From the IMG/VR virus record IMGVR_UViG_3300033182_001695, positions 1 through 44,962 of that record: DNA of 44,962 nt; one strand, given 5' to 3'. Below the pieces are notes generated by a model that saw only the letters and a list, made by a program, of their open reading frames with translations, was not told where the DNA came from and did no database searches. Numbering within the stretch: the first letter of the stretch is position 1; the number at the start of each line of letters is the position of its first letter. The DNA comes from a virus. This document shows, piece after piece, positions 15,603 to 18,199 of this stretch. The position numbers and the translations under genes were made by a program.

Positions 15603-16880
15603 GTGTGGATTCATGTACCTTCAGAATTTTGTCCCTCTGTTCAGGAGTTGGAGGAATTGAGCTTGGATTCAAATTGGCTATTCCAGAAAGTAGAACAGTC
15701 GCTTACATCGAGAACGAAGCCTTTGCGTGCGCCATCTTGGAAGCGCGCTTTAAAGACAAAACCTTGGATGAAGCACCTATTTGGTCGGATATTAAAACCT
15801 TCGATGGCAAACCTTGGCGTGGAAAAGTGGATTGCATTACTGGAGGATATCCCTGCCAACCATTTAGTGTTGCAGGAAGAAAACTCGGTGCAAAAGACCC
15901 AAGACATCTCTGGCCAGAAATTAAACGACTCATTACAGAAATCGAACCACCAGTCTGTTTCTTTGAAAATGTCGGCGGACATTTACGATTGGGGTTTGAA
16001 CAAGTCAGCGATGACTTACGATCAATGGGTTACGAAGTTAAGGCAGGCCTGTTTACAGCGCAAGAAGTCGGCGCTCCTCACAAAAGAGAACGACTCTTCA
16101 TATTGGCCTACAGTAATAGCATCGGATCATCTGTCGAATCCAACAAAAACATTGGAGAACTGGCCAACAGTTCTAAGCTCGGATGCAACGATGGGAGCAA
16201 TAATATCTCCGAACGATACCTACAGAAAAACCTCGACAGGAAGTCTGAGGAAAATCAACAAAAATGGCAAGGATGGATCTCTAGGGTTAGCCAGGACAAT
16301 CAAAATGTGGCCAACAGTTCGAGGATCGTCAGCGCACGAACCATGTCAGAGCGAAATCAGGAACAACAACCCCAAGAAAAGATTGGAGGTGGAAGTTCAG
16401 AATTGGCCGACTCCGAGAACGCAGGAGCCAGGAAGCACGAGTCCAGGATATGGAAAAGGATTAAAGAATACTGCTCAGAATTGGAGAACGCCAAACGCTT
16501 CAGATGGCGAAGGTGGAGTGATGGAGTACAAGGACAGCAAAGCAGCAAAATTAAAACTGAGGGATCACAGCGTTCATGCGGTGAAATCATGGGCGACACC
16601 AACAACGAGAGATTGGAAAGATGGGAATGCTCAGAGCGAGAATGTTCCAACCAACTCCCTACTTGGCCGCCAAGCCCCACGAGCTACTCGCAGTGGGGAT
16701 CAGTCCCAGATAACCTTAAACCCGCTATTCACAAACTGGCTGATGGGATGACCAATCGGGTGGACGAAGTTCGAGCCTGTGGCAATGGAGTGGTACCTTT
16801 GGTTGCAGCTTATGCGTGGCGAATTCTTACAGATGGAATGCATCTGGTTAAAGATCAAAGAAAATAATCAAAAAATATGA
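15603..16880 (+). other. Overprinted second frame with WPTP-type repeats, interrupted by TGA
   Basis: The frame two bases ahead of the methyltransferase frame (+1 relative to it) is open for 382 codons (15603-16748). After one TGA (16749-16751) it stays open to a TGA at 16878-16880, which overlaps the ATG of the next gene by the usual 4-base ATGA. From about codon 148 it reads YDQWVTKLRQACLQRKKSA, then six Trp-led repeats (WPTV, WPTV, WPTV, WPTP, WRTP, WATP), TTRDWKDG, LGRQAP and NPLFTNWLMG. The TGA replaces the Trp expected in the familiar phage ending LMGWPIGW, and PIGWTKFEPVAMEW follows it. Similar sequences are annotated as proteins beside or within phage methyltransferases (from memory). 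It may be a true overlapping gene, now broken, or a shadow forced by the methyltransferase. Confidence 0.4.
15605..16867 (+). CDS. DNA cytosine-5 methyltransferase
   Basis: This 420-residue enzyme methylates cytosine at a specific sequence. Motif I is LSLCSGVGGIELGF (9-22), motif IV has the catalytic Cys84 in GGYPCQPFSVAG, motif VI is ENV (121-123), motif VIII is QEVGAPHKRERLFILA (153-168), and the closing motif RACGNGVVP is at 390-398. Between 170 and 330 lies a target-recognition region rich in Asn, Ser and Glu with repeated LANS/LADS units. It starts with GTG and has no clear ribosome site. No restriction enzyme gene is nearby, so it is probably an orphan protecting phage DNA. A second frame overlaps almost all of it. 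Confidence 0.88.
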   Translation: MDSCTFRILSLCSGVGGIELGFKLAIPESRTVAYIENEAFACAILEARFKDKTLDEAPIWSDIKTFDGKPWRGKVDCITGGYPCQPFSVAGRKLGAKDPRHLWPEIKRLITEIEPPVCFFENVGGHLRLGFEQVSDDLRSMGYEVKAGLFTAQEVGAPHKRERLFILAYSNSIGSSVESNKNIGELANSSKLGCNDGSNNISERYLQKNLDRKSEENQQKWQGWISRVSQDNQNVANSSRIVSARTMSERNQEQQPQEKIGGGSSELADSENAGARKHESRIWKRIKEYCSELENAKRFRWRRWSDGVQGQQSSKIKTEGSQRSCGEIMGDTNNERLERWECSERECSNQLPTWPPSPTSYSQWGSVPDNLKPAIHKLADGMTNRVDEVRACGNGVVPLVAAYAWRILTDGMHLVKDQRK

Positions 16881-18199
16881 AGGATAATTTTATCCCAAAA
16901 TTAGCAGAAAATATTGAATTAAAATCTGTAGAAGAGTTAATACCTTATGCCAAAAATGCTAGAACTCACTCTGAGGCTCAAGTAGCCCAAATAGCAAATA
17001 GCATAATTGAATTTGGTTTTACCAACCCAATTCTAATTGATGGAGCTAAGGGTATTATTGCTGGTCACGGAAGATTAATGGCAGCTAAAAAACTTAATCT
17101 TTCTCAAGTTCCAGTTGTTATTTTGGATCACTTAAGCGAAGCCCAAAAGCGCGCTTATATCATAGCTGACAACAAACTAGCCGAAAATGCCGGTTGGGAT
17201 GAAGAAATATTGGCTGGTGAATTAGCGGATTTAAAAGAAGAAAATTTTGATCTGGACTTAATTGGTTTTGAAGATCAGGAATTAGAAAAATTATTTTCTA
17301 ATTTATATGATGATAAGAAACTTCAAAAAGAAGATGAAGTTCCAGAGTTAGAAGAAAAATCAGTCTCAAAAATTGGTGATATTTGGATTCTTGGTAATCA
17401 TAAACTCATCTGCGGTGATTCAACCAAAATAGAAACTTACCAGTCTCTTTTAGAAAATGAGTTAGCTGATATGACTTTTACCGATCCGCCTTATAATGTG
17501 GATTACGATCAAGAGTCACGAAATATTTTGACTAGCAGAAATAGTAATGACAAAGATAAATACGAAAAACAATCGTCAGGTAAGAGAAAAATATCCAATG
17601 ATAATTTAGGCGATGCTTTCCCTCAATTTCTTCTTAGTTGTTGTTCAAATATTTTGTCTTTTACAAAGGGAGCTTGCTATATTTGTATGAGTTCATCTGA
17701 ACTTCATAACTTGCAAAAAGCTTTCATTGAAGCTGGTGGTAAATGGTCAACTTTTATCATCTGGGCTAAAAATCATTTCACTCTTGGAAGGAGTGATTAT
17801 CAAAGACAATATGAGCCAATTCTTTATGGATGGAAAGAAAAAAATGACCATTATTGGTGTGGTGACAGAAATCAAAGCGATGTTTGGTATTTTAACAAAC
17901 CATTAAAAAGCACGCTTCATCCAACTATGAAGCCAGTTGAATTGGTTAAAAAAGCAATTCTAAATTCCAGTAAAACTGACGATATTATCCTCGATCCTTT
18001 TGGTGGTTCTGGTTCAACTTTAATTGCCTGCGAGCAAGTAAAAAGAAGGTGTAGAACCATAGAATTAGACGAGAAATATGTGGATGTTATAATTAAAAGA
18101 TGGCAAGATATCTCAGGCGAAGAAGCAACTTTACTTGAAGATGGAAAAACTTTTAATGATATTTCAAAAGAAAGAATTGATGGAAAAGAACAGCAATGA
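16877..18199 (+). CDS. ParB-like domain fused to DNA adenine/cytosine-N4 methyltransferase
   Basis: This 440-residue protein opens with a ParB/Srx nuclease-like domain: IPYAKNARTHSEAQVAQIA (22-40), GFTNPILID and GIIAGHGRLMAA (59-70). The second domain is a beta-class amino-methyltransferase with DPPY at 203-206 and DPFGGSGSTL at 373-382, the reversed motif order of that class. It should methylate exocyclic N6-adenine or N4-cytosine. The ParB fusion is common in phage enzymes. Its ATG overlaps the terminal TGA of the overprinted frame, and the next small gene starts inside its last codons. Anti-restriction or regulatory methylation is likely. Confidence 0.88.
   Translation: MKDNFIPKLAENIELKSVEELIPYAKNARTHSEAQVAQIANSIIEFGFTNPILIDGAKGIIAGHGRLMAAKKLNLSQVPVVILDHLSEAQKRAYIIADNKLAENAGWDEEILAGELADLKEENFDLDLIGFEDQELEKLFSNLYDDKKLQKEDEVPELEEKSVSKIGDIWILGNHKLICGDSTKIETYQSLLENELADMTFTDPPYNVDYDQESRNILTSRNSNDKDKYEKQSSGKRKISNDNLGDAFPQFLLSCCSNILSFTKGACYICMSSSELHNLQKAFIEAGGKWSTFIIWAKNHFTLGRSDYQRQYEPILYGWKEKNDHYWCGDRNQSDVWYFNKPLKSTLHPTMKPVELVKKAILNSSKTDDIILDPFGGSGSTLIACEQVKRRCRTIELDEKYVDVIIKRWQDISGEEATLLEDGKTFNDISKERIDGKEQQ

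Follow-up and report, generated by a model that had tools for sequence, protein, structure and literature searches.

A phage C5-cytosine methyltransferase apparently encoded as two subunits in overlapping frames of one gene

Introduction

The beta polypeptide of M.EcoHK31I is reported to be translated from an alternative frame inside the alpha gene. In this heterodimeric C5-MTase (YGGCCR), the large subunit carries motifs I-VIII and X, motif IX resides on the small polypeptide and the predicted TRD has been placed on the large subunit (PMC3404938). M.AquI (CYCGRG) also consists of two polypeptides, is split after motif VIII and has motifs IX and X on its beta polypeptide. A single chain is found in the Mycobacterium phage FreddyB, where gp73 contains motif VIII, LPTP repeats, AFPEWMMGWPAGW and GNGVCP. 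In the record of phage K1G, a 'putative C-specific methylase' and an 'Mte8-like protein' are overlapping frames that are both annotated as genes.

Here we analyse a methyltransferase gene on a DNA of 44,962 nucleotides, the IMG/VR virus record IMGVR_UViG_3300033182_001695, which in its whole length is called the window. M.EcoHK31I is the nearest described system, the likeness being one of motif layout as given in PMC3404938. As in that enzyme, the large-subunit frame of the window has motifs I-VIII and X and lacks IX, and motif IX lies on a second ORF in an overlapping frame that is under selection in the relatives, although the window copy is truncated by a TGA. Unlike M.EcoHK31I, most of the relatives start both frames at most 5 nt apart and both frames run to near whole-gene length. 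In addition, the WPTP/central region is constrained in beta, whereas the TRD of M.EcoHK31I was assigned to the large subunit. M.AquI shares the split after motif VIII, and two of the related loci, L044 and L070, resemble it further with IX and X in the second frame, whereas motif X belongs to alpha in the window and in most relatives. FreddyB gp73 has its elements in the same order as the window but all in one frame and on one chain. K1G differs from most relatives since its beta start is located about 25-30 codons inside alpha and not 2-5 nt away. No restriction enzyme partner was recognised adjoining the window gene in an unsystematic look.

Results

Two open frames in the window gene

The frame of the methyltransferase is termed A (alpha), the +1 frame B (beta) and the third frame C. 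The features of the gene are as follows.

15603..15607, + strand: overlapping start codons GTGTG, with the beta GTG at 15603 and the alpha GTG at 15605; the NTGTGG arrangement is also present in 48 other loci
15605..16867, + strand: frame A coding sequence of alpha (420 aa), with the C5-MTase motifs I-VIII, a stop-free unconstrained spacer and motif X
15603..16751, + strand: frame B (+1) ORF of beta, 382 aa up to the TGA that truncates it; passenger N-half, WPTP repeats and the start of motif IX
16070..16102, + strand: motif VIII GAPHKRERLFI in frame A; the constraint passes from A to B within about 15-30 nt downstream
16104..16601, + strand: six W-led beta repeat units (WPTV/WPTP/WRTP/WATP), read in the window, with homologues found
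16664..16696, + strand: alpha segment WPPSPTSYSQW directly 5' of LMG; apparently A-constrained in the pooled relatives, not in the small comparison of the window
16716..16748, + strand: beta LNPLFTNWLMG, the first part of motif IX by sequence comparison
16749..16751, + strand: beta TGA at the site of the relatives' TGG (Trp), by comparison with relatives
16752..16880, + strand: remainder of frame B past the stop (PIGWTKFEPV...); its end TGA at 16878 overlaps the ATG of the next gene at 16877 (ATGA)
16781..16798, + strand: motif X GNGVVP in frame A, from reading the sequence

In frame A, PCQPFS is found at 15851 and FFENV at 15959. The first-pass annotation had described frame B as open for 382 codons, with six Trp-led units, LNPLFTNWLMG and, past a TGA at 16749, PIGWTKFEPV, continuing to a TGA in an ATGA overlap with the next start. 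All of this was confirmed. Frame B is open from the GTG at 15603 to the TGA at 16749-16751, LNPLFTNWLMG occupies 16716-16748, the final TGA is at 16878 and the Trp-led units are exactly six: WPTV at 16104, 16161 and 16308, WPTP at 16404, WRTP at 16482 and WATP at 16590. Its statement that the methyltransferase frame contains all motifs had to be corrected, as frame B is where motif IX and the middle segment under constraint are found. The next gene (16877-18199), overlapped by the end of frame B, reads as a ParB-like/N6- or N4-type DNA methyltransferase and is followed by terminase genes.

Constraint alternates between the two frames

Substitution rates were determined at the codon positions of frame A in ungapped pairwise comparisons, with pooled evidence from about 120 related loci. 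The pooled rates at A positions 1, 2 and 3 were.187,.134 and.370 in the N-part,.284,.088 and.126 in the middle, where the free position A1 is the third position of B, and.173,.073 and.324 downstream of LMG. The changes gather at A3 until motif VIII, then at A1 as far as LMG and at A3 again beyond it, and the switch points are located within about 15-30 nt of motif VIII and about 30 nt past LMG. A short A-constrained patch ahead of LMG in the pooled relatives corresponds to the WPPGPxxxxxW segment. When the window was compared with its own relatives, the pattern was the same overall, with rates of.424 at A3 in the N-part,.375 at A1 in the middle,.464 at A1 in the LMG segment and.368 at A3 in the C-part; unlike in the pooled relatives, the small sample ahead of LMG appeared B-constrained. 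In the middle, the window and its nearest relative are 45% identical in beta and 32% in alpha.

By these comparisons, constraint alternates between A and B and does not act on both over the same bases. Classical overprinting, with both proteins constrained on the same bases, was ruled out by this alternation. The overprinting proposed by the first-pass annotation holds in so far as dual-frame coding appears real, but the second frame probably supplies the enzyme's own central/motif IX portion and not an unrelated protein. It had also been cautioned that a conserved methyltransferase can force patterns into the other frame. The reverse was found: B is the constrained frame from motif VIII to LMG, where the methyltransferase frame is merely stop-free, and A is the constrained frame elsewhere.

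Both frames avoid stop codons

The stops expected in an idle frame were obtained by synonymous codon shuffling of the constrained frame. In the middle of the window gene, frame A has 0 stops vs 8.7 expected when the frame-B codons were shuffled (p=0.003, the minimum for 300 shuffles), and frame C has 11 vs 10.4 expected. In the relatives, the frame-A middle has 0 stops vs 188 expected (58 loci), a count that omits the broken-frame loci L018, L020, L044 and L070 (29 stops, about 31 expected). Frame B of the N-part has 1 stop vs 77 expected (63 loci), and from the start tag onward 0 vs about 125. These totals are not independent events because the loci are kin, and the contrast with frame C serves as the control: here, the middle had 329 stops vs 325 expected over all 63 loci and the N-part 254 vs 251.

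A second sample was picked solely by the DNA pattern of the beta motif IX. It gave 2 stops vs 150 expected for the frame-A middle and 0 vs 92 for the frame-B N-part, with controls of 219 vs 199 and 380 vs 303. One branch of C5 methyltransferases in this sample is separate and of the PCQDIS type, and its layout is the same; of the 80 loci, 15 were left unplaced by the script and a single one carried its motif VIII in frame B. Since the unconstrained regions are open in both frames, translation through both would be the best explanation. Taken together, the comparisons of sequences indicate that the dual-frame layout is real, conserved and widespread in many distant phages.

Paired start codons

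The start codons of alpha and beta are mostly 2-5 nt apart (ATGTG, ATGNATG), with offsets of -4, +2 or +5 nt. The start reads NTGTGG in 49 loci; beta would begin at its NTG and alpha 2 bases further on, at the GTG that overlaps it. This GTG is the sole alpha start after the upstream stop in 27 of the 49, and a Shine-Dalgarno-like 4-mer is in place in 31 of them; upstream of the GTGTG of the window no clear Shine-Dalgarno sequence was seen. Other clades have ATGNATG, with alpha leading and beta at +4, or a leading beta with alpha at +5. In K1G-like phages and in Bacillales the beta start is internal to alpha. The N-terminal 6-mers encoded by the same bases occur in 19 variants in beta, whose MW[IV]xP is the less variable, and in 32 in alpha.

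Two initiations are favoured over a frameshift or readthrough by the separate start codons of the two frames, usually at a distance of 2-5 nt, and by the conserved N-terminal peptide of frame B. We infer that both initiations would take place at one site, which makes a frameshift unnecessary. The expression by frameshift or readthrough suggested in the first-pass annotation is therefore the less favoured route.

The predicted alpha and beta polypeptides

Frame A matches PF00145 in Pfam (1.3e-41) and PHROG 363 (5.9e-64). The core of a C5-cytosine DNA methyltransferase is present (I-VIII with PCQ, ENV and RxR, plus X), and the predicted structure resembles M.HhaI and M.HaeIII. The AF2 pLDDT of alpha is >90 for most of residues 1-170 and 95 around 400-410, the site of motif X. 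From 190 to 393 it is mostly below 50, with values <50 at 190-275, 307-351 and 371-393. Motif IX is absent from alpha, which in the predicted model is also without a confident central domain, and the alpha middle does not appear to be a recognition domain. In a single-chain C5-MTase, TRD and motif IX belong to one chain read in one frame; here, the LMG segment was found in B and the middle was constrained only in B.

When the WPTP segment of the window was analysed by tblastn, it matched phage records that are mostly annotated as methylases. A search with the frame-B protein of Klebsiella phage KpV2811 gave matches in 225 phage records, N15 and K1G among them; in 198 of these the match covers at least 80% of the protein. 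Most of the records listed annotate only one frame, as 'C-specific methylase', 'Mte8-like', 'hypothetical protein' or 'DNA methyltransferase'. In the loci inspected first, the WPTP/LMG segment is in the +1 frame with respect to motifs I-VIII, and in frame B of the relatives the full motif IX-type consensus reads LNPxFVEWLMGWPxGWT. The actinophage FreddyB is the one case among the script-classified loci with WPTP repeats within the alpha frame; its methyltransferase carries motif VIII, the LPTP repeats, MMGWPAGW and GNGVCP on one chain. The beta profile aligns to the repeat and motif IX region of this chain (hhalign probability 94, E=1e-7). The number of beta repeats varies.

A single-sequence scan of viral_contigs gave no match, a sequence search of beta against the PDB returned chance matches only and no relative, and beta modelled alone gave no confident fold (pLDDT 49.8). 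The assignment of beta as a recognition subunit is thus based on position and homology. Judged by its homologues, frame B encodes a genuine protein family. By its alignment, this is probably the central/motif IX region that alpha is missing and not an unrelated overprinted protein.

A stop codon in the beta frame of the window

The site of the window TGA at 16749 is TGG in 80 of 80 pattern-matched relatives, although the pattern permitted TGA. This agrees with the nonsense change suspected earlier, which is specific to the lineage. The residues next to the TGA are also off consensus, with LFTNW in the window vs LFVEW or LFTEW in near relatives. A change of the code by which TGA is read as Trp was rejected, since TGA closes 11 of the 48 long ORFs of the window, in some cases within an overlap with the start that follows. 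The TGA may be a sequencing error. Otherwise it removes part of the beta motif IX, and with beta cut at this point the beta of the window, and with it the enzyme, is probably impaired.

Loci with other arrangements

Some relatives are off the common layout (L018, L020, L041, L044, L070, L142 and L148). Past motif VIII, frame A of L018, L020 and L041 is interrupted by several stops, and an ATG reopens it ahead of motif X. This in-frame ATG precedes the motif X segment at L018:3677, L020:3800 and L041:about 3413, the last with AGAGGAGG upstream, suggesting a third fragment and an enzyme in three pieces. The Streptomyces loci L142 and L148 have the WPTP repeats in B and LMG (IX) and X in A, an intermediate arrangement.

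Discussion

We consider it highly probable that the gene specifies a two-subunit C5-MTase encoded by two overlapping frames of the same strand. In alpha, motifs I-VIII and X would fold into the catalytic core, with about 200 central residues as a disordered spacer that needs only to be stop-free. Beta, in the +1 frame, would contribute what lies between VIII and X in single-chain relatives, namely the WPTP repeats and motif IX. The N-half of beta would be an out-of-frame passenger across the alpha core. Both subunits would be initiated from one site by the starts 2-5 nt apart, which would set their stoichiometry, and would assemble into one enzyme that marks the phage DNA; in the window copy, beta is truncated and the function probably impaired. 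The alternating constraint, the openness of both frames, the paired starts, the homology and the TGA vs TGG comparison were computed here. We infer that both frames are translated, that their products assemble into an active enzyme and that function is lost in the window copy, the alpha-beta enzyme being deduced from position, single-chain homology and the analogy to M.EcoHK31I. Against this reading stand the placement of the predicted TRD of M.EcoHK31I on the large subunit, the poor model of beta and its lack of a PDB relative, the missing Shine-Dalgarno sequence ahead of the GTGTG of the window and the relatives with other layouts.

To explain frame B by the methyltransferase protein sequence and its codon bias, as a by-product, is scarcely credible. 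LADS/LANS-type repeats of alpha with TTG GCN RAC codons do read WPTP in frame B, but the conserved frame in the middle is B, with substitutions dominating at B3, and beta is more similar than alpha to the nearest relative (45% vs 32%). Moreover, frame B is kept in L018 and L020 despite 14 and 8 stops in frame A, and the constraint and stop-avoidance tests contradict this reading. Beta could also be a protein in its own right, with a function apart from the methyltransferase and no link to it but the overlap; it has its own start, a variable number of repeats and a sliding-clamp-type motif at a terminus in some clades. We regard this as very unlikely, since alpha would be left without motif IX or a confident central domain and beta supplies the very segment that matches the single-chain relatives (FreddyB alignment; L090).

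A programmed frameshift would produce one long chain, read in frame A to motif VIII, shifted +1 into B and mostly returning for motif X. The constraint switch within 15-30 nt of motif VIII would fit such a site, as would the stop-rich frame-A middle of L018, L020 and L041 and the motif X in frame B of L044 and L070. A frameshift leaves unexplained why frame B is stop-free upstream of VIII (1 vs 77), why frame A is open through the middle (0 vs 188) and why the paired starts and the MWxxP N-terminus of beta are conserved, and we hold it to be unlikely.

The two-subunit layout is a variant of the known split-MTase kind, and its extent in phages and the paired starts are undescribed in the literature found. 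No account of the layout in phages was seen there, REBASE and most subscription journals being outside the scope. With somewhat less assurance than for the window gene, we favour a large and old class of phage methyltransferases with two subunits from one gene in two frames and one ribosome landing site of overlapping AUGUG-type starts. The idle halves would be stop-free filler and the choice of start would set the ratio; some lineages would have lost the filler and obtain motif X from a third internal start. Near end-to-end overlaps on the same strand are usually reported singly, whereas here one can be tested over many unrelated phages and prophages with a clear map of the constrained frame by region. 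The paired starts 2-5 nt apart may offer a simple model of how one ribosome binding site gives two proteins in a set proportion. Since most records list one frame only, these enzymes are incompletely annotated, and a specificity prediction or cloning with a single frame would miss half of the enzyme.

DnaN (sliding-clamp)-type pentapeptides (QLDLF, QLALF, QMSLF, QLTLF) occur near the extreme ends of beta in several clades. The beta of the window has none. They are found at the C-terminus in L006, L018, L020, L125, L126, L129, L131, L135, L138 and L148 and at the N-terminus in L139, L144, L155 and L160, hinting that the enzyme may ride the replication clamp.
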